This document shows, piece by piece, positions 30,579-53,802 of a DNA stretch of 59,885 nucleotides (the stretch's first letter is position 1; the number at the start of each line of letters is the position of its first letter). Under the pieces are notes generated by a model. The model did not search any database. It saw nothing but the letters and a program-made list of their open reading frames with translations, and was not told the DNA's origin. The position numbers and the translations under genes are program-made. Source of the DNA: Clostridia bacterium (GTDB lineage Bacteria; Bacillota; Clostridia; Oscillospirales; CAG-272); assembly GCA_017471825.1 (NCBI GenBank), contig JAFURQ010000009.1, forward strand, positions 1-59,885, given 5' to 3'.

Positions 30579-30613
30579 AAAACGGGCGCACCTCTCGGTG
30601 CGTCCGTTTTTTT
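30577..30613. terminator. Bidirectional terminator at the end of the ten-gene operon
   Basis: AAAAAACGGGCGCACC and GGTGCGTCCGTTTTTTT form a strong hairpin with A and T tails, serving the nucleotidase gene on the plus strand and the operon on the minus strand. Confidence 0.9.
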
Positions 30614-30618
30614 GCTTT

Positions 30619-31779
30619 TTAAAGGGGCTCGGTCATACAGTTCTTGAAGTTTGCGTAGGACTCGAACACCTCGTTTGATATACTCGGAAGCTTTTTATCA
30701 AATGCCGCCTTGAACATATCGTAGGTTACGGGAAGGTTTATGTTTTCTGCGTTTGTTGCGATGAGCTGCTCTATCGCCATACCGCACGCACTCTCTATGA
30801 TTCCGCAAAGGTCTGCACCCGAATAGTAGCCGTCGGTTGCGTACATCTGAGCCATATGAAGAAGCTCCTCTGCGCTGACCTCCGACGGTATTTTCTTAAG
30901 CTTGCCCGCTATAATCGCAAGCATCGCTTCTGCATCGGGGGGAGTTACGTGAATGATGTGCGAGAAACGCTTGTAGCGAAGGTAGGCGGGGTCGATTTTG
31001 TCGGGGCGGTTGGTTGCGCCGATAAGAATACGCTTTGAACCGTCTACGCCATAGCCGTTAAGGCGCTGAAGAAGCTCGGTGGTTACTGCCGATTTGTAGT
31101 CCTTATCGTCCTGTCCGCGCTTGCTGAATATGGATTCACACTCGTCAACGAAGAGTATCGCTCCGTCCTCGCAGGTTTCCATCTCTGCGAAAATTCTCTT
31201 TACGCTCTGCTCGGATTCACCGACGTAGGACTTGAAGATGTCGGCGGGGGTGATAACGTAAAGGGGCTTTTTTACCTCGTTTGCTATCGCCTCTGCTATC
31301 ATCGTTTTACCGGTACCGGGAGCGCCGTAAAGAAGCATACCCATACCGCCCTGCATATCGTAAATCTTGAGTATCTCGGGATGCTCTATCATATAGATAA
31401 AGTTCCTGACAACTGCCTTAACTTCCTTCAGACCCTTAACGTCGTCGAGCATTATATCCGAATCGGAAACCTTCATTATTGAGCCGTATTTCTGGGCTCT
31501 GTCATTCATAAACGCGGCTTCTGCCTCGAATTTTTTAACGTCCTCCTCGCGAAGTGCCATGCTTGCAAGCTTCTGTGCCTGGTTTGCGGCGCGACGGTAC
31601 TCTACGCAAAGCTCGTTTTTCTCCTCGCGCTCAAGCTCGCTTATGTCCTTTTTGTCCGCAAGTATTGCACGGATTCGTGACTTTGTTTCCTCGTATTCCT
31701 GAAAGAGCGCCTTATAGCTGCTGCCCGCATCGTTTGCGGCGGGGGCTGTGCTGTCGTTTGCTCTGCCTAATCTTGCCAT
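30619..31779 (-). CDS. Vps4/katanin-type AAA ATPase with N-terminal helical (MIT-like) domain
   Basis: 386 residues, AAAGGAGAG before the ATG. Residues about 18-103 predict as three helices, the layout of an MIT domain. One AAA module follows: Walker A GAPGTGKT (152-159), pore loop FKSYVGES (182-189, aromatic Tyr185), Walker B ILFVDECES (208-216), sensor 1 Asn257 in GATNRP, arginine fingers around Arg268/Arg271, and a GADL sensor-2 region. A single AAA ring with this architecture matches meiotic-clade remodellers (Vps4, katanin, spastin), uncommon in bacteria. Last gene of the ten-gene operon, 34 bases after a helical protein that could be its substrate or adaptor. The MIT comparison rests on predicted helices only. 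Confidence 0.85.
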   Translation of the reverse strand: MARLGRANDSTAPAANDAGSSYKALFQEYEETKSRIRAILADKKDISELEREEKNELCVEYRRAANQAQKLASMALREEDVKKFEAEAAFMNDRAQKYGSIMKVSDSDIMLDDVKGLKEVKAVVRNFIYMIEHPEILKIYDMQGGMGMLLYGAPGTGKTMIAEAIANEVKKPLYVITPADIFKSYVGESEQSVKRIFAEMETCEDGAILFVDECESIFSKRGQDDKDYKSAVTTELLQRLNGYGVDGSKRILIGATNRPDKIDPAYLRYKRFSHIIHVTPPDAEAMLAIIAGKLKKIPSEVSAEELLHMAQMYATDGYYSGADLCGIIESACGMAIEQLIATNAENINLPVTYDMFKAAFDKKLPSISNEVFESYANFKNCMTEPL

Positions 31780-31813
31780 TTTTTCTCTCCTTTATATTGG
31801 ATAACGTTGGGTA

Positions 31814-32521
31814 TTAAAGTCCTTCAAGACCCGAGCCGCCTGCGGGAGGTGTTGATGCATCAGGCTTCGATACGGGTGCGTCGGGACTTGCAGGTGCGGA
31901 GGTGCCGTTTTCGGCGGTGTCGACCCCTCTTTTTGCAAGGAACTCACGCGCTCCGTTGGTGCAGGCTACGGTTGCGCCACTGCTGTTTGTGCGCTTGATT
32001 TTGTTAAGCTTGTTCATCGACTTGCTCATCTTGCCGCTCAGCTTACCCATCCAGGTTGACATATCGACGATGAGCTTATAGTTCATTGTCATATTGTCGA
32101 AAATCTGCATTATTCTGCCGTAGTTGTTGCGCATTGCTCTCTTTCTGAGGCGCTTTGCTCTGCGGCGTGCGAAGAAGCCGTGGTCGGATTCGAGAGATTT
32201 CTCGTATATTCCGTTTTCGTATTCGAGTGCGTTGTCAAGGAAGGTAATAGCATCGCCAAGGCAGTCAACCGCGAGGTTGATAGCGTCAAGCTGCTTCATC
32301 ATTGCCTGCATCTGAAGCGCCGCATCAAAGAATGCGGAAAGCACGATGGTAAAGGGGCTGTCTACGCCGAACTCGTTTTCAAATTCAACGGTCTTTTCAG
32401 CGAGCATAACAAGCTTTTCGCTGAACTGAATACTTCTTTGCTCCTTTTCCTTTTTGAGTCTTTGCTCTTCGAGCTCCTTCTTTTTTCTCTCTATTTCGGT
32501 TTTGGTATTAAGATTGCCCAT
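31814..32521 (-). CDS. Helical, basic coiled-coil protein, unknown function
   Basis: 235 residues with AAAGGAG before the ATG. Residues 5-35 form a strongly charged coiled coil (ERKKKELEEQRLKKEKEQRS); about 40-170 is almost all helix, including a very basic patch (FARRRAKRLRKRAMRNN); about 190-235 is a Pro/Ala/Ser-rich flexible tail ending GGSGLEGL. No membrane segment. No family is recognised. A helical body with basic surface and flexible tail next to a Vps4-like ATPase invites comparison with ESCRT-III-type substrates, but there is no sequence match to support more than that. Confidence 0.7.
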   Translation of the reverse strand: MGNLNTKTEIERKKKELEEQRLKKEKEQRSIQFSEKLVMLAEKTVEFENEFGVDSPFTIVLSAFFDAALQMQAMMKQLDAINLAVDCLGDAITFLDNALEYENGIYEKSLESDHGFFARRRAKRLRKRAMRNNYGRIMQIFDNMTMNYKLIVDMSTWMGKLSGKMSKSMNKLNKIKRTNSSGATVACTNGAREFLAKRGVDTAENGTSAPASPDAPVSKPDASTPPAGGSGLEGL

Positions 32522-32536
32522 TTTATATTTCTCCTT

Positions 32537-35500
32537 TTATGCTTTATCATTTGCTATTGCGCTTGAAATAAATTCGCGGAGCGACTCTTTTTCAGCGGCG
32601 TTGTTGTCGACCCAATCGTGAATGTAAATGCGGTGAAGCTTCCATCCGCGGCGTGCCGTAAGCTCTGTATAGTAGAGCTGGTTGTAGTCAAGGTAGTCAG
32701 CGCTTGCATCGAGATTCTTCTCGCACCAGATGCCTGCCACCGCGTGTGAGAAGTCCTCGGAGAGAATCGCGATGGGAATGCGTACGGAGCCCTCGGTAAC
32801 ACCGAAATCGGTAACTATGCGGCTTCTGTCGATTCCGCAGGACACGATGTACTCGACTACGCGTGAAACGAAGCCGGGCTTCAGAACGGTATTGCTTACG
32901 AACTGCGATTTACCGCCCTCGCTGAACTGCTTGACAATGCGGAGATAATCTCCGATGAAGGCAACGTTCTGATTGGTGATCTGCTCTGCCTTAATTGAGT
33001 GCACTACCGCAACCGAGCTCTTCGCACGGGTGACGGCAACGTTGAAGATACAAAGACCGAGCTTGCTTCCCTCGCTCATACCTCTGTTCAGCTGACCGAA
33101 CGCCTGCGAGATTTCTCCGTTTGCGCGTTTGCCGTATGTTATTGAGATGATGAGGTGATCTGCCTCCTGACCCTGAACGGTTTCGATGGTCTTGAAGAAT
33201 ATAAGCTTCTCGGGCAGGTCGTTGAAGTTTGCTATTGCCTTATCAATTTTAGCGCCGAGGTAGAGGTCCTGTGCTATCTGACGCTTAATTTCCTTCACCT
33301 GCTCCTCACCGAAGGCTACGATACCGACGGATTCGGAGAGAGTTTCGGTTTCCTCGTTATAATAGCTGTCGAAGTGTGCCTTAAGCTCTGCGACGACTGC
33401 CTTTGCCTCGGGAATATTTTTCTTATCCTCGATATATCCGTCCTCAACGTAGATATCCTTGAAGCCGAGTCCCTTTGCATTGGGATTTGCCGTGGGGAAG
33501 GTACGCATATAGTCGTAGAATCTCTGCTGTGAGAAGGAGATGAGCGACTCGGTGCGGCTTCTGTAATGACAGCAAAGCTGCATCGCGGGGAAGGCGCAGT
33601 TGTTAAGAGCAAGACCGAGAACCGAGGTATCGGGATCAAGTATTTCTACCGAGCCGTCCTCGTCGGTTACGACTCTGTCACCGCGTGTCACAAAATGCTT
33701 AATGGGAGGCATCTGCCATTCGTCACCGACCATAACAACCTGCTTTGCTCTGAAGAGCACGGGAAGGATGGAAACGGGCTCAAGCTGGCTCGCCTCGTCT
33801 ATGATTACAACGTCGAAATCCTCGAACACCTCGCTTCTCATCATTACGCTGACGGTTGAGGGCGAGAGGATGAAGCACTTTTTCAGCTTCATTATTGCTC
33901 TTGCGTGATTTTTGAAGAGCTTGCGGAGGGTTTCGTTTATTCCCTTCTCCGCATTCAGGAATGCAAAGTCGGGGTCTGCCTCGTTAATGCGAGAGAAGCA
34001 GATGCTCTCGGTTATGAGAAGGACTGCCCTTTCAACGAGCGAATTGCCGTCACTGAGCTTTTCGAGCTCGCCGGTTATGCGATTGCCGAGTCCGTAGCGG
34101 TACTTTTCAAGCCTGCGGAGCTTTTCCTGTATTGCGAGATACAGAACCGAGTGCTCGAACAGGTCGACGAATGAATGCTCACCGCGAGAGCGGACACCGC
34201 ACTCAAATGGACGGAAGAAGCGCGCCAGGTCAACGCCTGCGTTGGCATCCTTTCTGGTTATGATGAGGTATTCGTTAGCCGCGTGGAGAAGCTCGCGGTT
34301 AAGAGCCTCGGTGGCAATATAATTAAGGTCGCCGAAGGTGACGAGCATAGGATTGTGCGAATAGTAGGTTTCAAAGAAGGTCTTGCCGAATTTTTCAAGC
34401 TCCTTTTGCACCTGCTCGATGCCGAGGGAGAGCGTTTTGCCGTTGGTTTTGAAGCCGCCGATGCGAGTTGCCATATCCGCTTCCGCCTTGCCGAAGATGC
34501 CGCTTTCATATACGTTGGCAAGCGCATATACTACCTCAGCGGTAGCGAGGGTGTTCTCGTCGGTGATTTCGCCAAGGGGCTTTTCCTCGCCGTTGAGAAG
34601 CTCGAGCACACGGGTAAGACCGTGGAGCGCCTTTGCACTGTCGATTGCGCGGAAGAGCTCGGCAAGAGTTTCACTGCCCGAATACTCTGCGGTTTTGATT
34701 GCCTCGCGGATAGCATCCTTGTGCTTTTCAAGCCTTGCGGTATATTCATCGGTTGCGACACCTGCATCGGTTGAATAGTCAACGAGGGTGTCGAGGATGT
34801 CAAGCTGCTCGTCGGTGAGCATTATCTGGAAGAGCTTGCAGACCTTTATTTTCGCCTGCTTATCCTCCTCGACGAGCTTACCGATTTCGGTCCAATGGGC
34901 GAGAGCCGTAAGAACATCGGTAAAGGGGATGGTGGGCTCGTAGCCGAGGGTGTTTATCTGTGCGTAAAGCTTTTTGCCCTTGAAGTCGAAAACTCCGGGC
35001 TTCTGCGGCTTTGCCTCGACGCTGTATCCCGACAGAGCGATGGTGGCTTCCTTGATAAGATCAAGCTCCTCGTCGCTGATGTCCTTGCGGAATATCGAGA
35101 AAAATTCGTGCTCGTGCTCCTTGCACTTCTTCATTCTCTCGCTGTGTCCCTTGCCGTATTCGGCAAGGATTTTCACCTTAACCTTATCGGTTGCGAGCTT
35201 GCAAACCTCCCAATTGTCGTAGAGGTCGAGGAATGCCGCGATGGTAAGAGCGGTATCGACGTCCTTTTCAGTGGGAAGCGAATCGAGCTCGAGCGATGCC
35301 TCGGTGGCTTTAAGCGTTTTGGGAAGGGCTACTCTGTTGCTAACGAAATCACGGTAAACGTCGCACACGTTTTTAACCGCTCTTGCATTTTTAGAGTCTA
35401 TTACCGTGCGAATTGCCTCGAGGGAGATTTTGTTTTTGAGAATGCAGGCAGCTACGGAAAGAGGAAGATTTTCGCCTCTTATTCCGCACTCCTCGAAAAT

Positions 35501-37150
35501 CTCCGTTGCCTCCTTAAGAAGCGCCGACACACCCTCACCCATTTTTTCATAAGCGGCGAGAGCGGCCTCGGTGTTCACGTCCTCAAGGGTTCTGAAACCG
35601 TAGGGAATCCAGGGGGATTTTTCAAGCGGATGATTCTTGCCAAGGAGGTCGAAATGATTTGATGCCGTGCCGACCTTGGTGGCAAAGAAATGATATACGT
35701 CGCGGGGCATTGCATAAGCGAGTGCGCCCTCGCAGAATTTTACGGGCTCTGCATCGATTTTGCAATACGCGTCAAGAGCGGCAAAATAGGAAAGACCTAC
35801 GATATCGGTGCCCTCGGCAACGCTAAACATTATCTCGCGGTAGTTCTCTATTTCCTTGGATGCAAGCTTTGCCTTGGATTTGCCTGCGTTGAGGTCGTTG
35901 TAGGAGCCTATGGGATTGTTGAATTTCTTCTTCTCCTCAAGAAGGCTGTTGAAATCCTTGCGGACGTCGGAGGGGTTGAGCTTCGCCGCCTGCGCCTCTG
36001 TTTCGCTTGAAAGCATCATAACGAATTTACGGAGCTCGGGCGGAAGCTTCGCATAAACCTCGGACATTGCGGCAGGCTTCTGCGAGGAGAGCATAACCTT
36101 TTTACCCGAAGCGAGCAGTGACGCTATCATATTGGTGATGGTGAGCGTCTTACCTGTTCCGGGAGGGCCCTTTATGATGAGAGAATCTCCGTTCACAACG
36201 CGGCGTATGATATCCTCCTGCACGCTATCGTGCGGAAGGACGCACTGCGGCTCTTCCCTGACCGGCTTTGCGGGGAGGAAGGAATCGTGCTTGGTGAATA
36301 TGCGCTGTATGAGGGGATGCTCGAATATTTTCGTCTTATTGCGCTTTATATCGTAGTACATACAAAGCTCATCGTGGTTGTACTGAAGGATAACCGCAGA
36401 ATCTCTGTCAAACTCGAATACGGTATCGAGGGTGAGGTCATCTCTCTTTTGCCTTGAGATATACTCTGCCACCTTTTCGAAATAGTCGACTCCGTTATCA
36501 AGCTTTTCAAGATCAATGGGGGTATCCATATCGTGACACTCGTCGCCGTTGGGGTGCGGGAAATTGTCAACGAGCTTGTCGCCCCAGACCTGACGGAGCT
36601 TCGCCATGAGGCAGGGGTTGATATAGATATCATCGTTTACAAATTCTATGTAAACGGGGGTTTGGTAGGTACCCGTGCGAATTAAACGGATGGGAAAGAG
36701 GATAAGCGGCGAGGTGACGTTCTGCACGTCGTCTGCCGTTGCGACCTTCCATTTAAGTGAGCCGACACAGAGAAAGAGGGGGTTGTTGCCCTTCAGGGAT
36801 ATCTCCTTATAGGTGTCGTCTATGAATTTATGAAGGACGTCGGAATTTTTCGTACCGTCAAGAGAGGACCAGTCGACGCAGTTTATATCGTCGCCTATCA
36901 GCTGCTCCTGCTCGGGATTTCGCGAGCTTTTACGGAGCACGGTATTACCGGGCGCTCCTATGCGCGCTCTTGCTACGTTGAGTATGTAGCGGCTTCTGCT
37001 GTCGTATTCCGGCTTTTCAAGGCAGAAGGTTTTGGAATTGTCGCCTGCGTAAAGATTTATGAGCTTGTTTTTGGAAACGTCATCAATATGGTGCAGCTCG
37101 GTAACGAAAAGCTCAAGTGTTTCCTGCTTTAATGCGTTATTGTTTTCCAT
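32537..37150 (-). CDS. Giant SF1 helicase, DUF4011-like, with degenerate C-terminal nuclease-like domain
   Basis: 1537 residues with GGGAG before the ATG. The N-terminal 300 residues resemble the DUF4011 region (FLCVGSLKWKV, SPLILFPIRLIR). The helicase is split: Walker A KGPPGTGKTL (327-336); a helical insertion of about 750 residues; Walker B VVIIDEAS (about 1114-1121); VGDEWQMPP; CCHYRSR; TVQGQEADHLI; and NVAVTRAKS (about 1370). This is Upf1-like SF1 architecture, which usually moves on DNA or RNA. Residues about 1420-1530 resemble the Vsr/MTES_1575-type nuclease that ends many DUF4011 helicases (ending GWKLHRIYIHDW), but the expected acidic residues are replaced (RIPIAI, GIWCEK). Core enzyme of the operon. 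Confidence 0.88.
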   Translation of the reverse strand: MENNNALKQETLELFVTELHHIDDVSKNKLINLYAGDNSKTFCLEKPEYDSRSRYILNVARARIGAPGNTVLRKSSRNPEQEQLIGDDINCVDWSSLDGTKNSDVLHKFIDDTYKEISLKGNNPLFLCVGSLKWKVATADDVQNVTSPLILFPIRLIRTGTYQTPVYIEFVNDDIYINPCLMAKLRQVWGDKLVDNFPHPNGDECHDMDTPIDLEKLDNGVDYFEKVAEYISRQKRDDLTLDTVFEFDRDSAVILQYNHDELCMYYDIKRNKTKIFEHPLIQRIFTKHDSFLPAKPVREEPQCVLPHDSVQEDIIRRVVNGDSLIIKGPPGTGKTLTITNMIASLLASGKKVMLSSQKPAAMSEVYAKLPPELRKFVMMLSSETEAQAAKLNPSDVRKDFNSLLEEKKKFNNPIGSYNDLNAGKSKAKLASKEIENYREIMFSVAEGTDIVGLSYFAALDAYCKIDAEPVKFCEGALAYAMPRDVYHFFATKVGTASNHFDLLGKNHPLEKSPWIPYGFRTLEDVNTEAALAAYEKMGEGVSALLKEATEIFEECGIRGENLPLSVAACILKNKISLEAIRTVIDSKNARAVKNVCDVYRDFVSNRVALPKTLKATEASLELDSLPTEKDVDTALTIAAFLDLYDNWEVCKLATDKVKVKILAEYGKGHSERMKKCKEHEHEFFSIFRKDISDEELDLIKEATIALSGYSVEAKPQKPGVFDFKGKKLYAQINTLGYEPTIPFTDVLTALAHWTEIGKLVEEDKQAKIKVCKLFQIMLTDEQLDILDTLVDYSTDAGVATDEYTARLEKHKDAIREAIKTAEYSGSETLAELFRAIDSAKALHGLTRVLELLNGEEKPLGEITDENTLATAEVVYALANVYESGIFGKAEADMATRIGGFKTNGKTLSLGIEQVQKELEKFGKTFFETYYSHNPMLVTFGDLNYIATEALNRELLHAANEYLIITRKDANAGVDLARFFRPFECGVRSRGEHSFVDLFEHSVLYLAIQEKLRRLEKYRYGLGNRITGELEKLSDGNSLVERAVLLITESICFSRINEADPDFAFLNAEKGINETLRKLFKNHARAIMKLKKCFILSPSTVSVMMRSEVFEDFDVVIIDEASQLEPVSILPVLFRAKQVVMVGDEWQMPPIKHFVTRGDRVVTDEDGSVEILDPDTSVLGLALNNCAFPAMQLCCHYRSRTESLISFSQQRFYDYMRTFPTANPNAKGLGFKDIYVEDGYIEDKKNIPEAKAVVAELKAHFDSYYNEETETLSESVGIVAFGEEQVKEIKRQIAQDLYLGAKIDKAIANFNDLPEKLIFFKTIETVQGQEADHLIISITYGKRANGEISQAFGQLNRGMSEGSKLGLCIFNVAVTRAKSSVAVVHSIKAEQITNQNVAFIGDYLRIVKQFSEGGKSQFVSNTVLKPGFVSRVVEYIVSCGIDRSRIVTDFGVTEGSVRIPIAILSEDFSHAVAGIWCEKNLDASADYLDYNQLYYTELTARRGWKLHRIYIHDWVDNNAAEKESLREFISSAIANDKA

Positions 37151-37153
37151 TGT

Positions 37154-39124
37154 TTACTCCCAATCTATCGTATGATATACGTTTTTGCTCTGGTCGAAGC
37201 AATCGTATTCGAAGGCTACGGCATCGCTTTCAACGACCTGTACCTTATATTCCGTGCCGTATTTTGAGCCCTTATAATTTGAGAAATTCAACTCCCAGCG
37301 CGGCACGCGGCTACGGGTGACGCCGAGCTCCGTCCAGTGCCATTCCTTCCAGCCGTGGTCGGTGAGGGTATGCTGAAATGCGTGGTAGCACTCGTGGCAG
37401 ACCGCTCTTGCCGTCCAGTCGAAATCGTCACAGCAGTCCTCGCGGTATTTTATCAGCTTACCGCCGTCACAGCAAAGACCGCCTGCGCTCTTGTCCTCCC
37501 ACTCATCGTAGGGTATCACCTCTACCTCAGGTGTGTATTGAGTCTGAAGCATATGAGCGACGAGAGTTGTGGCGTCGTTTAGTCGGCGCGATTTTTCATC
37601 CGCCTCTATTCCGTGCCAAACGCTTGAATCGTCGCCGCAGGTCATACAGTAACGAACGAGCAGGCCGCATTTTTCAAAGATATTGAGGCCGGAGCCTATA
37701 ACCTTGCGTATGTTGGCGGGGTTCGAGGTTCTTATAGTATCGTAGTCGAACTCGCGCGTTTTCTTGGTGAGGTCACGCTCAAGCTGTAAATCCGCCCAGG
37801 CAAGATCGAGGAACATCTCCTGCATGGGAATATTTTTTATGTACTCGTGAGAGCGGGACTTGTTTGCGGTGGATATTTCGAGAATATCGTCCCACCATGG
37901 CTTCTTTGCCGTGGCGAGTGATACTATCAGATTGAGCCCCACGTATCCCATATAGGGCATATTTTTACGGAGCTTTTCAAGCTCTGCGGCGGTGAGAAGC
38001 CCACTGTCCTGAAGGATTCTCGTAACCTCGTTATATGGGGGCAATGAAAGATATTTGTGGTTAACGTCAAGGCCTGTCAAGCCGTCCTGCGATTTGGCAA
38101 TATCGTAAAGCCGTTCATAAAGAGCACCGTTGCCCTTCGAGTCCATAATAAAGACGGTGAAGCCCTCTTTACCGTAGCGGATCGTGCGTTCGTAGAGCTC
38201 TGCCGCGTTGGTATCGTGGTAATCGGCGGCGTTGACGATAAGACAGCACTGACCGCCCGATTTCAGCCTTGTAAAGACGACGTCTATAAACTCCTTTGGC
38301 TTGCCCGAGAAGCCGTAGGCATCAATGACGGAGAATTGCCGCTTCGTTCTGTCGGCGTGGGAGTAAACAGCAAGCATTACCTCGTCCCTCAGGGGCGAGC
38401 TGATAACCGTGGTGCCTGCACTTACGAGTGCGCCGACGATGCCGGGGGCGTGATATACGGTTTTGTATTTTAGGTTTTCCGATAGGGGCGTTACGTAATT
38501 TTTAAAGAACTCGTCCGCCTGACCGCTCTGGAAGGAGTCAAGGGTTGCCTTTATAGAGTCGCAAATTTCCTGAAGGACTGCGACCAGGTCGCCACCTATA
38601 TCGTACATATTGACGTTTTCGGTGAAAACGTAGGTGGTATCGCCAAGCTCCTTTGCCTTCGCGAGCTTGCGCTCAAAGACGGTCAGAGTGTTGGCAAGCA
38701 GGTCGGGCGAGCTGGTAATGGGGTTGCCGTCCGAATCCTGCACCTGATGGAGAAGCTCGAGGGCGTCAAACATAAAGTTATGCACCTTCACCGCGAGCTC
38801 GTAGAGATTTTCGCACAGCGTTCTCGCCTGCTTATAATCCGTACATTCGAGCTTGGCACGGGCATCGGTGAGGAAATCGATAAGCTGTCGGTAATCCTCC
38901 TCCGTATAGCCCTCGTTGAAATAGCAAATCGCATAAACCTTTGCTTTAAGGCGATAATAGCAGGATTCTGCCGCGGCTCTGTTTTCCTCATTCAGCCCGC
39001 TTTTTTTAAGCATATTCGCCATTTTTTCGGCACCTGCCTCAAGCTGTGCCTTGTCAAGCGAGTCGAAAAACAGAATTTTTTGTTCTTTAATTATATCCTT
39101 GTAGGTAAGTGGTGCGTTTGCCAT
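37154..39124 (-). CDS. HExxH zinc-metallopeptidase-like protein
   Basis: 656 residues with GGAG before the ATG. Residues 1-230 are helical and charged; about 230-380 looks like an alpha/beta domain (FSVIDAYGFSGKPKEFIDVV, CLIVNAADYHDTNAAELYE, FTVFIMDSKGN) that could be a degraded P-loop or Rossmann unit without a clear Walker A. The C-terminal domain has CHECYHAF, an HExxH motif (His577, Glu578, His581), and about 50 residues later VVESDAVAFEYDCF, where Glu632 could be the third zinc ligand, as in IrrE/ImmA-like zincins. Predicted cytoplasmic protease, possibly a regulator or effector in the operon. No family name can be given for the whole protein. Confidence 0.75.
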   Translation of the reverse strand: MANAPLTYKDIIKEQKILFFDSLDKAQLEAGAEKMANMLKKSGLNEENRAAAESCYYRLKAKVYAICYFNEGYTEEDYRQLIDFLTDARAKLECTDYKQARTLCENLYELAVKVHNFMFDALELLHQVQDSDGNPITSSPDLLANTLTVFERKLAKAKELGDTTYVFTENVNMYDIGGDLVAVLQEICDSIKATLDSFQSGQADEFFKNYVTPLSENLKYKTVYHAPGIVGALVSAGTTVISSPLRDEVMLAVYSHADRTKRQFSVIDAYGFSGKPKEFIDVVFTRLKSGGQCCLIVNAADYHDTNAAELYERTIRYGKEGFTVFIMDSKGNGALYERLYDIAKSQDGLTGLDVNHKYLSLPPYNEVTRILQDSGLLTAAELEKLRKNMPYMGYVGLNLIVSLATAKKPWWDDILEISTANKSRSHEYIKNIPMQEMFLDLAWADLQLERDLTKKTREFDYDTIRTSNPANIRKVIGSGLNIFEKCGLLVRYCMTCGDDSSVWHGIEADEKSRRLNDATTLVAHMLQTQYTPEVEVIPYDEWEDKSAGGLCCDGGKLIKYREDCCDDFDWTARAVCHECYHAFQHTLTDHGWKEWHWTELGVTRSRVPRWELNFSNYKGSKYGTEYKVQVVESDAVAFEYDCFDQSKNVYHTIDWE

Positions 39125-39164
39125 TTTATCTCCATTCTGCCGCGTGGGCTATTATAGATAATTA

Positions 39165-40604
39165 TCAGTTTTCGTCAAGGAGTGTGGAGCGGAGGCTGTT
39201 TCTTCTGTTCTGACGCTCGGTGTTTTCCTCATTTTCATCCTCGGGCTCCTCGCCGAGAAGACCCTTAAGGCGCGAGGTGGTCTCGGCATCGCGCTTTCTT
39301 TCGCGCTTTTCGCGGCGCGCGGTTTGACGCTCGACTCTGTACCCCTCTCTGTCGCCGCGGATTTGAACCGCCGCAGCGCCGATGGTACCCAGCTCCTCCT
39401 GCTGAAGAATCTTCTCTACCATGCCGAAGATACGAACACTGTCGATATCCTCCTGGTCTGCGTTACCGCGCATTACGTTGTTGAGAGCATCGAAGTCGAT
39501 CTCACCGTAAATATATCCAAGCTTTACATAGTCTCCTGCGTATTTGTCGATAACCTCCATAAGTCTCTCAAGCATTCTGAGGTGGCGGCGGAAGGCGGAG
39601 CCTGCGGTCTTGGTTTCTCTTATATAATCCTTAAGGTCGGCGATTTCGCCCTCTGCATCGTCAAGGTCTGCGGTGATATCCTCGAGCTCGTCAAGAGCGT
39701 CGTCCTCAGACATCTCACCGTTCTGATAAGCGGTGCGGACCTCCTTTATGCGAGCCTTGAGGCTGTCGCGGGTTTCCTCCTCCTTTGCGAGTCTTGCCTC
39801 GTCCTTTTCGGTGGAGTATCTGCGCTCGACCGTTTCGGTATAGGTTGCAAGGTTCTCACGGAAGTGGTTAGCCTTGACGTCAAAGCGTCTGACCTTTACC
39901 GCCGCGGTAAGACCGTCCTCCATATCATTCTCATCGAAGGTTATCTTGGTCATATCTACCTCGCCCTTACGGGTGCTGCGTATGCCCGCCCAACCCTTTG
40001 TTTTATCAAGCGCCGCATCAAGACTCTTGAGAGACTGTTCATCCTGCATTGAATCGGCAACGTCGTTTGACCAGACCTTGAGGGAGGAAACGATTTCGGT
40101 TGCGTGCTCCTGTGCCTCCTTGCCCGTGAAAACGGACACGTTCTCAACTGCCGCCTTGATTTCCTTGAGCTTTTCAAGGCCTGCCGAGAGAACCTCTCTG
40201 CGCTCGGGACGGGTTTCGTCATCGAGGTATGCCTGCGTGCCTTCTATATACGTGTCAATACGCTCCAAAAGTTCACTTTTCATTATGAGTATATCTCCTT
40301 TTCTCATTACTTTTTCCGTTTTTTCAACGACCTTTTCGACCTTTGCCGAATATTTTTTCAGCTTGAGGCCGTTTTTTTCTTCGCTTATATCGGAAATGAG
40401 GTCTATTATATCCTCGATATTTCCCTTCATTCCCTTCGCAAAATGAGTATTGACGCCGTGGACGAGCGCCTCCTCGAGAGTATTAAAGAGCGAGGTGAAC
40501 GTATCCACGTAATCGCCGATACAGCCCATACGCTTTGCCGAGGTCAACGGCTTCACGTTGAAGCCGTTTTTATTAAGACAGTCACATAAAACGCTAAATT
40601 CCAT
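39165..40604 (-). CDS. Long coiled-coil protein, unknown function
   Basis: 479 residues with GAGGG overlapping the end of the preceding gene. Mostly helical and highly charged: about 85-215 and 245-345 have heptad-like character (DALDELEDITADLDDAEGEI); the C-terminal 60 residues are extremely basic then acidic (ARREKRERKRDAETTSR, EEPEDENEENTE), probably disordered. No catalytic motif, signal or membrane segment. It could be a scaffold or filament-forming component. It starts one base after the stop of the zinc-ribbon gene upstream, so translation is coupled. Confidence 0.72.
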   Translation of the reverse strand: MEFSVLCDCLNKNGFNVKPLTSAKRMGCIGDYVDTFTSLFNTLEEALVHGVNTHFAKGMKGNIEDIIDLISDISEEKNGLKLKKYSAKVEKVVEKTEKVMRKGDILIMKSELLERIDTYIEGTQAYLDDETRPERREVLSAGLEKLKEIKAAVENVSVFTGKEAQEHATEIVSSLKVWSNDVADSMQDEQSLKSLDAALDKTKGWAGIRSTRKGEVDMTKITFDENDMEDGLTAAVKVRRFDVKANHFRENLATYTETVERRYSTEKDEARLAKEEETRDSLKARIKEVRTAYQNGEMSEDDALDELEDITADLDDAEGEIADLKDYIRETKTAGSAFRRHLRMLERLMEVIDKYAGDYVKLGYIYGEIDFDALNNVMRGNADQEDIDSVRIFGMVEKILQQEELGTIGAAAVQIRGDREGYRVERQTARREKRERKRDAETTSRLKGLLGEEPEDENEENTERQNRRNSLRSTLLDEN

Positions 40605-40605
40605 C

Positions 40606-41721: not shown

Positions 41722-41736
41722 TTAAGCTTCTCTCCT

Positions 41737-46707: not shown

Positions 46708-46725
46708 ATCTGTTCGCTCCAATTT

Positions 46726-48396
46726 TTAGACTTTATTCGTGTTGCTTGGGGGCTTGAGGTAGCCGCGATCCCCGGCATTCAGCTTGTTGAAGATGTATCT
46801 CTTACTGCCTAATACGAAAATAATTATCTCGTCATCCTCAACACACGCCTTTTTCGCAAAGAGAGAGGCTACGCGCGTATGGAGCGGAAGCATACCGCTG
46901 TACGTTCTGTAGCGCGCTCTTGCCTTGGTGTCGGTCGGTGCTTTTGCAAGGCTTGCGCAAAGGGGGCATTTTTTAGCAACCAATATACTGTCTGTGAAGC
47001 GGCGTCCGCAAACGTTACAGGTGCCGAGATTTTCATCGTTGGGAACAAGCTCGAGCTTGTCGGTTGCAACGTCGAGCGAGGGCGTGTAATACTTGCCGTC
47101 CCAGATAACCTCGGGGTGAGGACAGTCCTTACACATGGTTTTGAGAGTACCTCCGCCGATGTCGATAGAGATAAGCTGTGATGCACACTTAACGCGGGAG
47201 CAGCCTCTGGACGCCTTAATGCTCTCAAGGCCGTGAACCTCGATAAGATGGTTGTGCATAGTGCTGTATTCCTTTATCTCCGCTACTTGCTCCTCGGTAA
47301 GTCCGAAGCCCTCGACCTCGGGATTGATTACGACGGTGCGGGTGGTTTCATCATCAACGGTGTAGGTGATTTCGTTGTGGTTGATGAGGTACTCACGGGC
47401 ATTGCAGTTCATACAGCGGATGGAGAGGGTGTTGTTAAGTCCTATCGAGAAGCGAAGCATGGGTATCTCGTTTATGCAAAGGTCGCATACGTAGGGCTCG
47501 GTTTTGATATGGGTGATGTACAGGCAGTCGATCTTCTGACATTCCAGAGCGAAATTGTCGTGCGCCATCTGCTTTTTCAAAACCTTCAGCGATTCCTGAT
47601 CCTTCTCGTCGCTGAAGCAGATGTAATCTGCAAAATTCTTGCGCGGGTCATTCGATATTTCATCAACGAGGCGCTCAAGCTCTGCGAGAGTAAGGTCGAT
47701 TATTTTGGTATTGGTGGCGGAGCCTGCAACGGCGGTGCCGTCGTCGTTCTCGGGAACGAGGTCGAGTATATTCTGATTAAGGCTTTCCGCAAGGCTTGCA
47801 GGCATGGGCTTGAAGGTGTCCTGCATGCAGTTGAAATAGATCTTGCAAAGGAAGGGCATAGGAGCGCTCTGCGTTACCTCGGAGGCAAGATCGACACGCA
47901 TTGCGATACCGTAGAGGTCATCGCTTTCGTTAGTATTGAGCTGCGGAACTATGGAATAGGGACGGTTTTTAAGCTCGGGATAGAAAACGCCGAAAAACGC
48001 CTCGGCAACCGCCTGCGCATTTCTCTTTGCTTCCTCGAGCTCTGCCTTATCCTTCTTTTTGGGCAGGTATTCAACGACGGAGAATTTCTTGTGATACTCC
48101 TTCTGAACCTCCTGCTTAAAGCTGAGCCATTCCGCGTTATCGTCCTTCTCGTCATCGCTGTTGCCGCGCAGGGTTTTGAACCAGGTTGCGCCGCTTTCGT
48201 TGAAGCCGAAGCTCTGTGACGCCTCGGTGCTGTTTTCAACGCTCAGGAGGACGTATTCGTGCGTTTCACCGATTATTCGGGTGTTATCGCCGTTTACCTG
48301 ATAGCCGGAGTTAAAAAGTCCGGCGCTGCTGAGCAGCAGGCATACGCTTTCAAAGGCTTCCTTATGTTCGAAGCCGACTTTTATTATTCTTGGCAT
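46726..48396 (-). CDS. Multi-zinc-ribbon protein, unknown function
   Basis: 556 residues from the ATG; a TTG two codons earlier is possible. A degenerate AAGGAAG site precedes it. The N-terminal 300 residues are alpha/beta without known motif. From about residue 305 come several Cys pairs: CDLC with CMNC, GCSRVKC with CKDC, and CNVCGRRF with CPLC, that is at least three zinc-binding modules. The C-terminal end (DDEIIIFVLGSKRYIFNKL) is basic. Soluble. It sits 15 bases after the SNF2-type helicase, whose tail is also Cys-rich in the same style, so the two may bind the same nucleic acid or each other. Confidence 0.72.
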   Translation of the reverse strand: MPRIIKVGFEHKEAFESVCLLLSSAGLFNSGYQVNGDNTRIIGETHEYVLLSVENSTEASQSFGFNESGATWFKTLRGNSDDEKDDNAEWLSFKQEVQKEYHKKFSVVEYLPKKKDKAELEEAKRNAQAVAEAFFGVFYPELKNRPYSIVPQLNTNESDDLYGIAMRVDLASEVTQSAPMPFLCKIYFNCMQDTFKPMPASLAESLNQNILDLVPENDDGTAVAGSATNTKIIDLTLAELERLVDEISNDPRKNFADYICFSDEKDQESLKVLKKQMAHDNFALECQKIDCLYITHIKTEPYVCDLCINEIPMLRFSIGLNNTLSIRCMNCNAREYLINHNEITYTVDDETTRTVVINPEVEGFGLTEEQVAEIKEYSTMHNHLIEVHGLESIKASRGCSRVKCASQLISIDIGGGTLKTMCKDCPHPEVIWDGKYYTPSLDVATDKLELVPNDENLGTCNVCGRRFTDSILVAKKCPLCASLAKAPTDTKARARYRTYSGMLPLHTRVASLFAKKACVEDDEIIIFVLGSKRYIFNKLNAGDRGYLKPPSNTNKV

Positions 48397-48411
48397 AATC
48401 AAACTGCTTCC

Positions 48412-51258
48412 TTATCTTCTTTCTCTGTCATTGGACAAAATGTTCTGGATATTCGATACCTTATCCGCTTCGTTTAGCAGGTTGGGACAGAACGCCTTTC
48501 CGCCGTCCTGCTGATAGCTGTACGCAGAGCGTATATACGTTTCAAAGGTTCTGGCAACAACGGGCTTGATTGCACTCTTACAATCGGGACAGGTTGCTAT
48601 CCATTTATCATCTGCAAACTCGATTACGTGAGGCTTAGGATGCACGCAGCTGGAGTCCTCACAGCTAAGACAATGAAGTATTGCCTTATCCTCTATACCC
48701 GAGGAGGGCACGAGGTGACATCTGTCGGGACAAATCGAGCGAGAGGGACAGTCGTTACAAAGGGTTTCGAGGTACGCCTCGCTCGCGTTGGGCGTCGACT
48801 TATAGTACTTAAGCGCCGCGCATTTATCCTTGAGAGGACCGCTTGTGAATCTCTTACAGTGGGAAATTACGCATATCTTGCGGCAGTAGAGCTTTCTGTC
48901 GCCGCGCTCACCGGTATTGCAAAGCACGCCGTGGCTTCCGTCGTCGGTGGAGGAGAAGCAGTAATAGCGGTTATCTCCCTCTCTCTTTATGACCTTGCCG
49001 CATCCGGTACACTTCATTTCGTGGGAGTTTATCTCCTCCATAAGAGTACCCTTGGGGTCGAGCTGTGTACACTCTGCGTTCTCGGCGCAGTAGAGGTCCT
49101 CGGGGTTACGGAGCTGCTTCTCCACGTATTCCTCACGGGAAAGAAGGCGAACTCTCTCACACGCCTTACAGCGTATGGTTACCATGTTATCGTTATTACA
49201 GCCCGCTATGATTGCGGCGTCACCGGAGTTGCTCGTCATAAGTCCGATGTGAGTGAAGTACATAAGCACGTAGCCCTCGAGAGCGCGCATATCCGCAAGC
49301 GAATATACGGTTACGTCGTTCTCCTGTCCAAGACGGAAGATACGTCCGATTCTCTGCTCCATTGCGAGCGGGCTGGGCGTTACCTGGAAGTTTACGATTA
49401 CGTTACACTTCTGAAGGTTTGCACCCTCGGTGAAGGCGCTGTTCGTGACCACGAGGACTGCGTCCTCCTTCTGATCGAAGAGCTTTATCTTCTGGTCCTT
49501 GCCTGCCTTATCCGACTCGCCGCCTATGAGCACGCGCTCGGAAAATTCCTTATCCTTACGAAGCTCTGTGAGCACCTGCTCGTAGCAGCGCTCGCTTCTT
49601 GCGATATCGTAGTCGAAGAATATAAGAACGCGGTTGTTCTTGTTTTTACGAAGTATGCTTTTCAGCTCTGCCATCTTTGCATCGAGCATATTGCCCTTTG
49701 CAACGGGGGAGAAGTGGAAGCCTATACCGTCATTTGAGGTCGGGGGAGTTACCTTCGTTCTTCTCATAAGAGAATAGTAGAAGCTGAAGCTGTCGGGCTT
49801 ATCAAAGCTGTTTTCACCGAGACCGTACTCCTGAAGAATGCCGCCCTTTGCGAAGAAGAGCTCCGCATACGCATCACGGTAGGTCTGGTTGCCCTGATGG
49901 GCCATTATGTATTCGGCGAGCGAGTAGGAGCCGTCCTCTGCCTCTATGGCGCCTGCCTCGTCGATTTTGTCAAAGTGAACGGTTATCTGCTTGCCGTTAA
50001 GTCCGTTACAGCGTACAGAGGTTGCCGTTTTCTTCGCATCGAAGAAGAGAATATTCTCAATTCTCTTACCCTTCAGAAGAACCTCGTTATCGTCCTTACC
50101 GGGCTGGCGTATCATTATTGAGCGCAGGACGCCGTCGTGATATGCCGAGGCGATATTGTCGTTAACCTTTTCCTTAATTTCGGGGTTGAGGTCGAGGAAT
50201 TCTCTGATAAGTCTCTTTTTCTCGCTGATAAGGAGCTTATGGAAGGCATCCATGCTTCTTATCTTCTGCTTTGCAAGGAAGGCGGAGAACTCGTGTCTGA
50301 AGGTAATTGTTACCTCGTCCATTCTTACATTCTCTATAAACTCGCTGACTGTTGCTGCTCCGCGGCAAACCACGGTGCGATAGTATTCCTTCTCCTCGCG
50401 GTACTCTGCGGTACGTGCAACGTCGTCCTTCTCGTCGAAGTCGGTGGGATTACCGCCCTTACAGCGAACGAAATACCAAAGACGGAACATATTTTCAAGG
50501 CTTCCCGAGTGGGGTGTTGCGGAAAGGAGAACGCAATAGGTTTTCTTTGCCGCCTTCTTAGTCTGCATAAGCAGTGAGAGAAGCTTCATTGATTTTGCCT
50601 CGTGTCCCTCCTCGCCGCAGAGGTGGTGCGCCTCGTCGACTATAACTACGTCGAAGAGCACGTTTTTGATGCTGTGCTCATTCCATTTCGCGAAGTCCTC
50701 GGCGGTTACTATCATCGGCGATTTCGGACGGCGGAAGGCTCCGTCGGTTACGAGGTCTGAATCGCGGATTTCGGTGATGTGATTAAGCACGCCCTTACCG
50801 AGACCGAAGCTCATCTCAAGCACGTCTATCCAGGTCTGATATACCTGCGAGGGCACGATGAGAAGCGCGGAGGTTATTTTACCCTTCGCGGAAAGCTCGG
50901 AGAGAACCGCGCACGCCTCGTAGGTTTTACCGCTTCCGACGACGTCGGCAAGAAGTCCGAAGCCGCGGAGCTCCTTGAGGAAGCGGTGTGCCGCCTTCAT
51001 CTGTCTGGGGAGAAGTCTGTCTCTTGAGCCGTGGTGGAAGCGGCGCTCGGGAATGCCGTATTCGCTTTCATCATTCTTGGCATAGTCCGAGGAGTGAAGC
51101 GAGAGCTTGTCGAACTCGTCATCTCTGTCGAGAACCTCTGCCGCCTTGTTCATTTCAGCTACCTTTTTGGTGAATTTTCTCGTCTCGCCGAATTCACCGC
51201 GCTCGTGCTGCTTATTAAAAGCGCCTTTAGCAAACGATATTTTCAAATTGTTACTCAT
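48412..51258 (-). CDS. SNF2/RapA-type SF2 helicase with Cys-rich C-terminal region
   Basis: 948 residues with TAAGGAG before the ATG. RecA-like domain 1: LLPRQMKAAHRF (82-93), Walker A DVVGSGKTYEA (105-115), DEAH box VIVDEAHHL (205-213), motif III LSATPHSG (245-252). Domain 2: FTEGANLQKC and motif VI QRIGRIFRLGQ, as in SNF2/RapA translocases. About 60 residues later a Cys-rich region of about 200 residues begins, with repeated CxxC pairs (CKACERVR, CTGCGKVI, CNDCPSRS, CLSCEDSSC, CPDCKSAI), at least four ribbons. A translocase that remodels protein-DNA or RNA complexes is likely. Second gene in the operon. Confidence 0.88.
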   Translation of the reverse strand: MSNNLKISFAKGAFNKQHERGEFGETRKFTKKVAEMNKAAEVLDRDDEFDKLSLHSSDYAKNDESEYGIPERRFHHGSRDRLLPRQMKAAHRFLKELRGFGLLADVVGSGKTYEACAVLSELSAKGKITSALLIVPSQVYQTWIDVLEMSFGLGKGVLNHITEIRDSDLVTDGAFRRPKSPMIVTAEDFAKWNEHSIKNVLFDVVIVDEAHHLCGEEGHEAKSMKLLSLLMQTKKAAKKTYCVLLSATPHSGSLENMFRLWYFVRCKGGNPTDFDEKDDVARTAEYREEKEYYRTVVCRGAATVSEFIENVRMDEVTITFRHEFSAFLAKQKIRSMDAFHKLLISEKKRLIREFLDLNPEIKEKVNDNIASAYHDGVLRSIMIRQPGKDDNEVLLKGKRIENILFFDAKKTATSVRCNGLNGKQITVHFDKIDEAGAIEAEDGSYSLAEYIMAHQGNQTYRDAYAELFFAKGGILQEYGLGENSFDKPDSFSFYYSLMRRTKVTPPTSNDGIGFHFSPVAKGNMLDAKMAELKSILRKNKNNRVLIFFDYDIARSERCYEQVLTELRKDKEFSERVLIGGESDKAGKDQKIKLFDQKEDAVLVVTNSAFTEGANLQKCNVIVNFQVTPSPLAMEQRIGRIFRLGQENDVTVYSLADMRALEGYVLMYFTHIGLMTSNSGDAAIIAGCNNDNMVTIRCKACERVRLLSREEYVEKQLRNPEDLYCAENAECTQLDPKGTLMEEINSHEMKCTGCGKVIKREGDNRYYCFSSTDDGSHGVLCNTGERGDRKLYCRKICVISHCKRFTSGPLKDKCAALKYYKSTPNASEAYLETLCNDCPSRSICPDRCHLVPSSGIEDKAILHCLSCEDSSCVHPKPHVIEFADDKWIATCPDCKSAIKPVVARTFETYIRSAYSYQQDGGKAFCPNLLNEADKVSNIQNILSNDRERR

Positions 51259-51268
51259 AATCTACTCC

Positions 51269-53410
51269 TTAGCTAAGTGATACGTCGATGTTATCGATAC
51301 CGTCTATTCTCGGCTCGACGTCGCGAAGATTTATGGTTATTCTCGAAGCAGCCGAAAGGATTTCTCCCCTGCTTCCAAGCGTGAGCACCTCTACCTGAAC
51401 GCGCTTGTTCTCGGTCGAGCTCTTGTCGTTTACGATGAAGGGGGCTGCCCTTCCGCTCTTGCTCACTATTATTCCCTCACGGGCTTTGATTTTCGTGCCG
51501 CTCGGCAGGCGAATCGGTTTGTTATTGTAGTACAGACGGATTTTCGCCTTCTGACCGTTTCTGCGTGCGGGAATTACCTTCAGGTCGAATACCTTCTCTG
51601 CCGCATTCCAGCATTTTCTTGTGAATTCCCTTTCCTCTGCGGTTTTCTCGAAGTTTCCTATAACTATCTTTCCGTTGTAGAAATGGAGATCCCTGTGCGG
51701 AGGATTGTGGGAGATTGCCTGTATTTTGCTCGAGGTGAATACTGTGCTGTAAATCTCCTCACCCTCGGCGCCGGCACCGTAAACGTCAAACGGATCCGAT
51801 TCGAATCTGCCACCGTTTTTGTTAACGTCTGTACCGCGCTCAACGAAGAAATCTATGAATTTCTGACCGTTTGCACTGTACCACGAGCCGTAGGAGCGTG
51901 AGAGTACGGTTTTAATTTCTATGTTCTTCAGAGCGATGATTGCGCCGCCGACCGCCGATGAGAAAACCGAGTCCTCGTATGACGAAAGCTTAAATCCGTC
52001 TATCGTCTGGTTTCCGTCGTCGAAGGTACAAACTGGGATGGTGACGCCGTGCTTCGCAAGCTCGCTCTTGATGTAATCAAGGAGTGAATAGGTTTCGATA
52101 AGTCCGCCGGAGAGGAATATCTTCTGCGCGTCGGTATTTACCGTTCTCTTTACCTCGCCGAGTATGTAGTCGAAGATGCGCTTCGCTATTCCGCCGGAGC
52201 CGTCGGTGCCGAGGCACGCCTTTACCTCGCTCTTTTTGAGGCGTCTTTGTACGAGGAGCTCTCTGTGGAAGGAGAGCGGAACTCCGTAGCGCTCAAATGA
52301 GGAATCGGGGGGAAGAGGACGGCTGAAGATAACCTTCGCGTTTTTAACGTCCTTCATAAGAAGGTACTGCTTTGAGTAGGCGCTGTCCTCAACGATGTGT
52401 CCGGGCTCGCCCGCGGGGGCGCTTCCTATGGTTTCTCTGTCGTTGATGTTGCCTTCAAGGTAGTTTACAAGAGCCTCGTCAACGTTGTTGCCGCCGATAT
52501 CAATGGGGGCGTTGTGGTCCTCGTCGCCGTCTATAAGCACCTGATTGTTCATTATGGTTGCCTGAACGACCGATATGGTTTCCTCACCCATATCGAACAC
52601 GAGGAAGCTCTGCTCGTTCTTCACCGCGTTTCTGTGCAGGGCGTAAAGAGCGAGAGCCTTGTTGGAATTGATAATCTTGGTGGGGAGTGTGCCGAAGGCG
52701 TATTTGATAAGCTTCGAGAGCTGATCGAGGTACGCCTCGCCGACCTTCGCAGGATGGACGAGCGCGATTTTCACCGTGGAAAACGGTCTGCCTATCTGCT
52801 CCTCGAGCTCAAGCTTACGCGCATCGACGAGCCCCTTTATGTATTTGAAGAAGCCCTTGCAGACCTTCTCGGGTGTGAAGCCCGGAGCCTCAAAGGTCAT
52901 ACCCTTATTTACCATCTCGTCAAAATCGCTGAGCACGGCAAATCTGACGGGGAAATAGAATTTCGGGAAATGCGATTTATTGAAATAATAGTCCTTGTTC
53001 TTCTCCTCGCCTTCGGCACTTGCCTGCGGTGCGAGCATTGAAATAAGGTGCTTGATTTTTACCGTAGTGATAAAGGAGTCGTTGCCGTGCTTATCAACCT
53101 GATCGGAGTATATCCATTTACCTGCCGCCTTGTCGTAATATGCAAGTGCGGGGAGAGCGACCTTCGGGACGTTGCATTTTTCTGCAAACTTACCGTAGTG
53201 GACGGTGCCCTGCTCCTTGTAAGCAAATGCAATCTTCAGGGTGTCTCCGCCGAGGTCAAGACCGATGTAGAGTGCATCTGAATCGGTACACGTATCCTGC
53301 GGTGCGACCGGCTCGCTCGGTGCTGTGCTATCCTCGGGTTTTGTGGTTTGAGCCCGAGCGCCGTTCAGCATAGAGCTGAGAGAGTTATACAAATCGCTGA
53401 TGTTTGCCAT
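51269..53410 (-). CDS. Hsp70-like ATPase (actin/Hsp70 fold), first gene of the operon
   Basis: 713 residues with a perfect AGGAGG site. An N-terminal flexible stretch (1-44) precedes the nucleotide-binding fold: phosphate-1 YIGLDLGGDT (48-57), phosphate-2 VFDMGEET (271-278) and adenosine motif IFLSGGLIET (431-440), plus SSAVGGAIIAL. The C-terminal 200 residues are beta-rich, in the place of the Hsp70 substrate-binding domain, but with no strong DnaK similarity. No signal or membrane segment. Related Hsp70-like proteins occur in bacterial conflict and stress operons as chaperone switches. It is the promoter-proximal gene; a hairpin lies in its leader. Confidence 0.86.
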   Translation of the reverse strand: MANISDLYNSLSSMLNGARAQTTKPEDSTAPSEPVAPQDTCTDSDALYIGLDLGGDTLKIAFAYKEQGTVHYGKFAEKCNVPKVALPALAYYDKAAGKWIYSDQVDKHGNDSFITTVKIKHLISMLAPQASAEGEEKNKDYYFNKSHFPKFYFPVRFAVLSDFDEMVNKGMTFEAPGFTPEKVCKGFFKYIKGLVDARKLELEEQIGRPFSTVKIALVHPAKVGEAYLDQLSKLIKYAFGTLPTKIINSNKALALYALHRNAVKNEQSFLVFDMGEETISVVQATIMNNQVLIDGDEDHNAPIDIGGNNVDEALVNYLEGNINDRETIGSAPAGEPGHIVEDSAYSKQYLLMKDVKNAKVIFSRPLPPDSSFERYGVPLSFHRELLVQRRLKKSEVKACLGTDGSGGIAKRIFDYILGEVKRTVNTDAQKIFLSGGLIETYSLLDYIKSELAKHGVTIPVCTFDDGNQTIDGFKLSSYEDSVFSSAVGGAIIALKNIEIKTVLSRSYGSWYSANGQKFIDFFVERGTDVNKNGGRFESDPFDVYGAGAEGEEIYSTVFTSSKIQAISHNPPHRDLHFYNGKIVIGNFEKTAEEREFTRKCWNAAEKVFDLKVIPARRNGQKAKIRLYYNNKPIRLPSGTKIKAREGIIVSKSGRAAPFIVNDKSSTENKRVQVEVLTLGSRGEILSAASRITINLRDVEPRIDGIDNIDVSLS

Positions 53411-53469: not shown

Positions 53470-53498
53470 ATTATAGCATAATAATGAACAAGTGTCAA
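53470..53498 (-). promoter_or_regulatory. Promoter of the ten-gene operon
   Basis: On the minus strand perfect TTGACA, 17 bases, TATAAT. The first start codon is about 60 bases further on. It is the only strong promoter seen for the 22.8 kb unit. Confidence 0.82.
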
Positions 53499-53773: not shown

Positions 53774-53802
53774 TTGACAGTGGCAATATTTTGTGCTATA
53801 AT
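53774..53802 (+). promoter_or_regulatory. Promoter of the LRR protein gene
   Basis: TTGACA, 17 bases, TATAAT, about 58 bases before the start; the leader contains GAAAGGTG before the ATG. Confidence 0.78.

Follow-up and report, generated by a model that had tools for sequence, protein, structure and literature searches.

Ten genes of conserved order in three Clostridia genomes: a rare block and possible membrane-tethered conflict system

The window, that is, the whole stretch of 59,885 nucleotides (nt) analysed from contig JAFURQ010000009.1 of a Clostridia bacterium, contains a block of ten genes at 30619-53410 that combines two helicases, an Hsp70/actin-like ATPase, an AAA ATPase, zinc-ribbon proteins, a giant membrane protein and an HExxH protein. 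All ten are present as open reading frames (ORFs) on the minus strand of the window and are numbered here from gene 1 to gene 10 (Table 1). Intergenic gaps, from gene 1 to gene 10, are 10, 9, 3, 15, 1, 40, 3, 15 and 34 nt long, so that the ten co-oriented genes with gaps of 1-40 nt described in an initial annotation are as claimed. That annotation set the block between one perfect promoter and one strong terminator. A promoter-like site matching 12/12 positions and a 16-pair stem do occur at the two ends, but a second perfect promoter, oriented away from the block toward a leucine-rich repeat (LRR) gene, and an 11/12 site in the 40-nt gap preceding gene 7 are also present. The remaining promoter-like and terminator-like sites within the block are about as frequent as in shuffled sequences. 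Because of the second promoter and the 11/12 site, a single transcript covering the ten genes is likely and no firmer than that. Rfam gave no match in 28000-59885. The likely starts of genes 3 and 4 are inner ATGs instead of the listed TTG codons, as judged from the translations of both genes and from the N-termini of relatives of gene 3.

Table 1. Features of the ten-gene block and its surroundings. Identities (%) are window-G450/window-G042.
Feature	Coordinates	Strand	Length (aa)	Description	Basis or remark	Identity
Gene 1	51269..53410	-	713	Hsp70/actin-like ATPase	Sub-threshold Pfam HSP70; DnaK motif alignment	41.6/38.4
Gene 2	48412..51258	-	948	SNF2-family helicase, Cys-rich C-terminal zinc-ribbon region	Pfam, PADLOC, NCBIfam profiles	44.6/41.4
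Gene 3	46726..48402	-	558	Multi-zinc-ribbon protein	No Pfam family; probable start 48396	28.2/27.2
Gene 4	41737..46722	-	1661	Giant membrane protein	Hydrophobic N-terminus and MBG/YDG repeats; probable start 46707	33.3/30.2
Gene 5	40606..41721	-	371	N-terminal zinc ribbon, second domain without family	Sequence	25.4 (unreliable, G450 frame holds a stop)/29.7
Gene 6	39165..40604	-	479	Coiled-coil protein without family	Relatives chiefly by place and length	21.2/21.4
Gene 7	37154..39124	-	656	HExxH zincin-like protein, N-terminal half without family	Motif	29.8/31.6
Gene 8	32537..37150	-	1537	DUF4011-type superfamily 1 (SF1) helicase, degenerate MTES_1575 restriction endonuclease (REase)-like C-terminus	Pfam, PADLOC, NCBIfam	
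Gene 9	31814..32521	-	235	Basic helical protein, low-complexity C-terminal tail	Sequence	30.4/26.2
Gene 10	30619..31779	-	386	Single-module classic-clade AAA ATPase	Pfam, NCBIfam	54.7/47.9
Promoter-like site	53470..53498	-		TTGACA-17-TATAAT, TG before second hexamer	12/12 match, sigma-70-type; gene 1 lies 88 nt downstream	
Second promoter	53774-53802			Oriented toward the LRR gene	12/12 match	
Internal promoter-like site	39178-39151			In the gap preceding gene 7	11/12 match	
Terminator-like stem	30577..30612	.		16 pairs, T-rich tails on both strands	Separates gene 10 from a convergent phosphoesterase gene	
LRR gene	53861-54952			BspA-type LRR protein	Divergent from gene 1, own perfect promoter	
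Gene beside integrase	55792-56508				Weak phage-family match	
Large serine integrase	56912-58537			Resolvase, Recombinase, zinc ribbon	phrog_95, 6.6e-106; 3.5 kb upstream of gene 1	

The gene order recurs. Scanning a collection of 84,980 species genomes with two short gene 1 patterns yielded 42 candidate stretches, two of which are relatives: JAFTQV010000049.1 (G042:C9), from a Clostridia metagenome-assembled genome of roe deer cecum, and CALVYT010000006.1 (G450), from an uncultured Clostridia bacterium. G042 belongs to the same genus as the window genome (G000), as does G005, used below, and G450 is a distant member of the Clostridia. At G042:C9, nine of the ten genes were detected in the same order by tblastn (E 1e-3), gene 6 being recognised by position and length. 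The same nine genes follow one another at G450:C6, where a gene stands in the place of gene 6. At E 1e-3, tblastn gave no match for gene 6 in either genome; in pairwise blastp comparisons, the candidates score E 0.024 (G042, 499 aa) and 3e-6 (G450, 466 aa). All three known loci retain the block, and the order of the ten genes is beyond chance. The promoter is found again in G042, with 12/12 hexamer positions and the identical 17-nt spacing, 84 nt upstream of gene 1; a hexamer search upstream of gene 1 in G450 revealed no such promoter.

Carriers of the block are rare. A search for gene 1 across 98 genomes, covering most of the genus and then the order, gave matches in the window genome and in G042 only, hence in one of 97 relatives. 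Only the window genome was recovered with the profiles of gene 1 (E 1e-12, 394 genomes of the order), gene 7 (391 genomes of the class), gene 2 (E 1e-40, 291 genomes of the class) and gene 8 (E 1e-60, 388 genomes of the phylum). The gene 10 profile detected, in 291 genomes of the class, one further AAA protein in a different setting (G725). Since the samples overlap and were evenly drawn, and the pattern scan was strict, distant copies may be missed, and the counts give the rarity of carriers only approximately. The conserved block of patchy distribution that the initial annotation had anticipated is borne out to this extent, and homologues scattered without a shared neighbourhood were not encountered, both further loci being ordered.

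Viral contigs contain no relative of genes 1, 7 or 8 by profile, and two short, weak matches to gene 2. The gene 10 profile has 137 relatives there; at 80 of these 137 loci and at six others (86), gene 10 was the only one of the ten proteins matched. Gene 1 is found in no plasmid or phage record and gene 7 in no plasmid. Gene 8 matches 269 plasmid records, none covering 80% of it (about 30% among the matches listed), and gene 10 matches one plasmid record and no phage record.

Domain calls made for the SNF2 helicase, the DUF4011 and SF1 helicase, the AAA protein and the MBG repeats all lie above Pfam cut-offs. In gene 2, 21 Cys residues are invariant across the three copies, and its best profiles among the matches listed are BrxH, DrmD and DpdE (best 25 of 50 in PADLOC, and NCBIfam). 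In PADLOC, gene 8 scores best on PDC-S37 (6.6e-118), a phage-defence candidate, and next best on Hhe; its NCBIfam matches are ProA and Hhe. At the position of the RxD motif of active REases, the three copies of gene 8 read RIP, RLP and KIP, and this end of the protein is probably inactive. With that motif degenerate, the block would hold no clear active nuclease, leaving the putative protease as its sole evident hydrolytic effector. Gene 8 of G042 is spread over two overlapping frames (L004:534-5101, G042:C9), which may reflect a real lesion or an assembly error. A second DUF4011-like helicase, an open frame of 1271 aa, is found outside the block in G450 (L014:6437-10252, G450:C10).

Gene 1 was annotated as Hsp70-like. 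It scores 16.9 bits against the Pfam HSP70 family, below the cut-off of 20.6, but its phosphate-1, phosphate-2 and adenosine motifs align with those of DnaK in 3/3 copies. The protein is not a DnaK (TIGR02350, 17.7 bits vs a cut-off of 822.55), and a separate full-length DnaK is encoded in the window genome (contig C30). No PDB match was obtained at E 0.01. The catalytic Glu of DnaK (E171) is replaced by S, T and F in the three copies, and the position of Thr199 is occupied by T, D and V. By analogy, gene 1 may hydrolyse ATP slowly. Slow hydrolysis has similarly been proposed for the Hsp70-like proteins of CoCoNuT systems (PMC11090510).

Invariant Cys residues number 11 in gene 3 and four in gene 5 across the three copies; the Sel1-like character suggested for gene 5 found no Pfam support at E up to 1. 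Hydrophobic segments of gene 4 are confined to the first 161 residues in the three copies and are followed by MBG/YDG repeats, of which MBG passes the Pfam cut-off. The length of the protein varies (1661, 1497 and 1245 aa), as does the number of YDG/YNG motifs (12, 9 and 8). The repeats may lie outside the cell, and sensing at the envelope is suggested by just two traits of this protein, its hydrophobic N-terminus and its MBG repeats. The HExxH motif reported for gene 7 is present in 3/3 copies as HEC(Y/F)HAFQ, with a downstream E-x-D-A motif that includes a conserved Glu. Searches of Pfam, PADLOC, NCBIfam and PHROGs assigned gene 7 to no family, and PDB returned nothing convincing.

Gene 9 has no PDB match; its tails are rich in Pro, Gly, Ser and Asp and finish with a similar short motif in the three copies. 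CDC48 is the top NCBIfam model for gene 10 in 3/3 copies, and its Pfam matches include AAA (114.7 bits) and AAA_5 (22.7 bits vs a cut-off of 22). The AAA part of the initial ‘Vps4-like’ call stands, with a weak Vps4_C match in 2/3 copies, but the Vps4 label is loose. Gene 10 scores 127.8 bits against CdvC, the cut-off of which is 650, and in each of the three genomes a different AAA protein outscores it on this model. Pfam yielded no MIT domain for gene 10 among the matches listed. Profiles of genes 7 and 10, or of genes 6 and 9, show no similarity to each other. Contig C2 of a further Clostridia genome, G725, encodes two small helical proteins and, after them, an AAA protein with a single module (L020:1292-3643, L019:15683-16501). 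This AAA protein reaches 211 bits against CdvC over nearly its full length (135.5 for another AAA protein of G725), and a SPFH/zinc-ribbon gene lies close by. One of the small helical proteins looks like a component of the endosomal sorting complexes required for transport (ESCRT-III) by eye only, without support from Pfam, NCBIfam or PDB.

Block proteins are 20-55% identical across the three copies, and their similarity does not follow that of DnaK, which is 84.6% identical between the window genome and G042, 67.9% between the window genome and G450, 68.8% between G042 and G450, and 80.5% between the window genome and G005. Six of the nine comparable window proteins are as similar or more similar to those of G450 than to those of G042, and eight of nine are nearer G450 by blastp using another G450 frame for gene 5, the exception being gene 9. 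As the block is equally divergent within the genus and between distant lineages, separate acquisition is the most likely explanation, and the block probably moved as one piece. The assemblies of G000 and G042 lack RpoB, and FtsH was discarded as a marker after the G042 AAA protein compared proved to be no orthologue; the transfer argument thus hangs on DnaK alone. Besides its full-length DnaK, the window genome has an incomplete one where a contig ends (G000:C31:3-1274, L059), either a paralogue or contamination.

The surroundings of the block differ at each locus. In the window, the LRR gene, an uncharacterised gene and a serine integrase lie on one side and a phosphoesterase gene on the other. 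Glycoside hydrolase genes flank the block in G042, and mnmA and an iron alcohol dehydrogenase gene flank it in G450. The integrase and the gene adjoining it possibly mark an island. The LRR gene has no relative at the G042 or G450 locus. Relatives of the phosphoesterase are present in 25/69 genomes of the genus, its own included, which argues that the contig is native to the genus despite an estimated contamination of 5.23%.

We tentatively favour the view that the block is a horizontally moving, membrane-tethered helicase-unfoldase-metalloprotease conflict system, probably directed against invaders. What the sequences show is gene content, order and conservation, the ATPase and HExxH motifs and a probable transfer as a unit. 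Counted in favour of this view are the ten-gene order of the three genomes, the similarity that departs from that of DnaK, the HExxH motif kept in 3/3 copies, the differing neighbours, the nearby serine integrase, the defence-family profiles of genes 2 and 8 and the degenerate REase motif. As to topology, partner pairs, the nucleic-acid target, the protease as effector, the coupling of the AAA protein to genes 9 and 7 and the role in defence, we infer a scheme of the following kind. Gene 4 would anchor a platform in the membrane, with its repeat array outside. Aided by the zinc ribbons of genes 2, 3 and 5, the helicases of genes 2 and 8 would engage foreign or aberrant nucleic acid, and gene 1 would act as an ATP-bound switch and not as a fast chaperone. 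The gene 10 AAA protein would then pull on a partner, with gene 9, held by its floppy tail, as the simplest candidate and gene 6 as the alternative. Pulling would release the putative zinc metallopeptidase of gene 7, which would cleave host or invader proteins, and growth would stop. A more ambitious version of this scheme strikes us as doubtful. In it, the block would be an immune or conflict machine of a categorically new sort, anchored in the envelope, where the Hsp70-like switch and the AAA unfoldase link nucleic-acid translocation by the two helicases to the activation of a zinc protease, and the membrane-bound repeat protein serves as sensor or platform. If true, nucleic-acid sensing would lead to proteolysis by a route absent from all the systems compared.

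Several observations weigh against a conflict system. The initial annotation raised the possibility of a nearby defence island, and none was found: 0/7 flank proteins of the window match PADLOC, and of ten proteins flanking the two further copies (three from G042, seven from G450) none has a defence-type match in Pfam, which returns glycosyl hydrolases, DnaX, MnmA, alcohol dehydrogenase or nothing. This plain neighbourhood is the strongest evidence against defence. No direct attachment (att) repeats of at least 12 nt are shared between the ends compared, and only the HExxH motif marks gene 7 as a putative zinc peptidase. With 100.9 bits, gene 2 is also similar to RapA, which recycles RNA polymerase, and its PDB matches are five RapA sequences and no others. 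Together with SEN1, the one PDB match of gene 8, these RapA matches would suit a stress or housekeeping machine, in which RapA-like and SEN1/UPF1-like helicases, a chaperone and an AAA unfoldase would deal with stalled transcription or nucleoprotein complexes. Such a machine appears quite unlikely, as the block is too rare (one of 97 relatives, and the window genome only among 394, 391 and 388 genomes) and does not track DnaK; rarity and transfer are the strongest evidence against it.

Alternatively, gene 4 may be the working part of a cell-surface or cell-cell interaction system, with the ATPases, chaperone and protease building, processing or displaying the MBG protein. Gene 4 encodes the largest protein, sits in the middle of the operon and differs among the copies in length and in its number of repeats, and in the window the block adjoins the LRR gene, which has a perfect promoter of its own. 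We judge this explanation unlikely: it does not readily account for a pair of nucleic-acid helicases from families rich in defence members, and the LRR gene is without a relative at the other two loci. The serine integrase, the weak phage-family protein beside it and the transfer pattern would also suit cargo that serves a mobile element, in its maintenance or the exclusion of rivals, and not the host. We regard such cargo as very unlikely: gene 1 is unmatched in plasmid and phage records and in viral contigs, Pfam finds no recombinase among the tested flank proteins of G042 and G450, and no 12-mer is shared at the ends compared. The least probable reading is bacterial ESCRT-like membrane remodelling, in which gene 9 (or gene 6) would polymerise and gene 10 would be its Vps4. 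Gene 9, which is small, basic and helical and has a flexible tail, does adjoin a single-module AAA protein with a weak Vps4_C match in two copies. The assignment was dropped on the basis of the CdvC ranking and a negative ESCRT-III comparison, in which the profiles of genes 9 and 6 matched the ESCRT-III-like-looking G725 protein with probabilities of 0.5% and 0.1%, respectively; the MIT search described above also speaks against it. According to a 2024 article, ESCRT homologues are numerous in archaea and have not been found in bacteria (PMC10936438).

Whichever reading holds, the ten genes have stayed together despite identities of 20-55% and passage between distant Clostridia, so they must act jointly. 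No informative family is available for six of the proteins (genes 3, 5, 6, 7 and 9 and the N-terminal part of gene 4); the block thus names new protein families and offers one testable unit. If it serves defence, helicases, an Hsp70-like switch, an unfoldase and a protease would be joined at the membrane. If it does not, it would represent an envelope or nucleoprotein machine of a new type.

Searches of PADLOC (2023), NCBIfam, Pfam and PHROGs revealed no match of the whole block to a described system, in agreement with the initial annotation, and no description of the ten-gene set was found among the matches listed in the open-licence literature. Single genes do resemble parts of known systems. 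Gene 8 shares with Hhe, ProA and PDC-S37 the DUF4011 domain, a split SF1 helicase core and an REase-like C-terminus, but it falls far short of the cut-offs in NCBIfam (390.5 of 1500 bits for ProA and 295.7 of 2000 for Hhe), its REase motif is degenerate and it sits in a ten-gene set. The SNF2 profiles closest to gene 2 among the matches listed, DISARM DrmD, BREX BrxHI/II and DpdE, represent helicases that differ from it in lacking the long zinc-ribbon tail. In DISARM, DrmD is accompanied by DrmA, DrmB and a methylase, and the BREX partners are the PglX/BrxX methylase, PglZ and BrxC/BrxL. Among the matches listed, no methylase, DrmA/DrmB or PglZ partner was recognised in the ten proteins: the sole DrmA match is gene 2 itself, which scores 110.3 bits against DrmD (cut-off 610), and gene 2 alone matches BrxH (PADLOC, Pfam). 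IetA is a partner of IetS, a subtilisin-type protease. Gene 10 matches IetA profiles (2.2e-29) and shares its operon with a putative protease gene; however, it reaches 89.1 of 510 bits, Pfam shows no subtilisin among the matches listed and the putative protease of the block is zincin-like. Vps4/CdvC systems with ESCRT-III likewise feature a single classic AAA module, which here adjoins the small helical protein of gene 9, but the CdvC score is below the cut-off and surpassed within each genome, and no MIT or ESCRT-III match is among those listed. CoCoNuT and other conflict systems bearing Hsp70-like proteins, as described, share with the block an Hsp70-like protein with an altered catalytic site, zinc ribbons, coiled coils and AAA proteins. 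They differ in that McrB/McrC and DUF2357 are absent from the block among the matches listed, no vWA domain of the MoxR-vWA kind is among the Pfam matches listed, and no DO-GTPase, MoxR-vWA pair or tubulin homologue was recognised. SNF2 helicases are sometimes found near such Hsp70-bearing systems (PMC11090510, PMC7159879). We file the block under the broad kind of multi-ATPase conflict systems.

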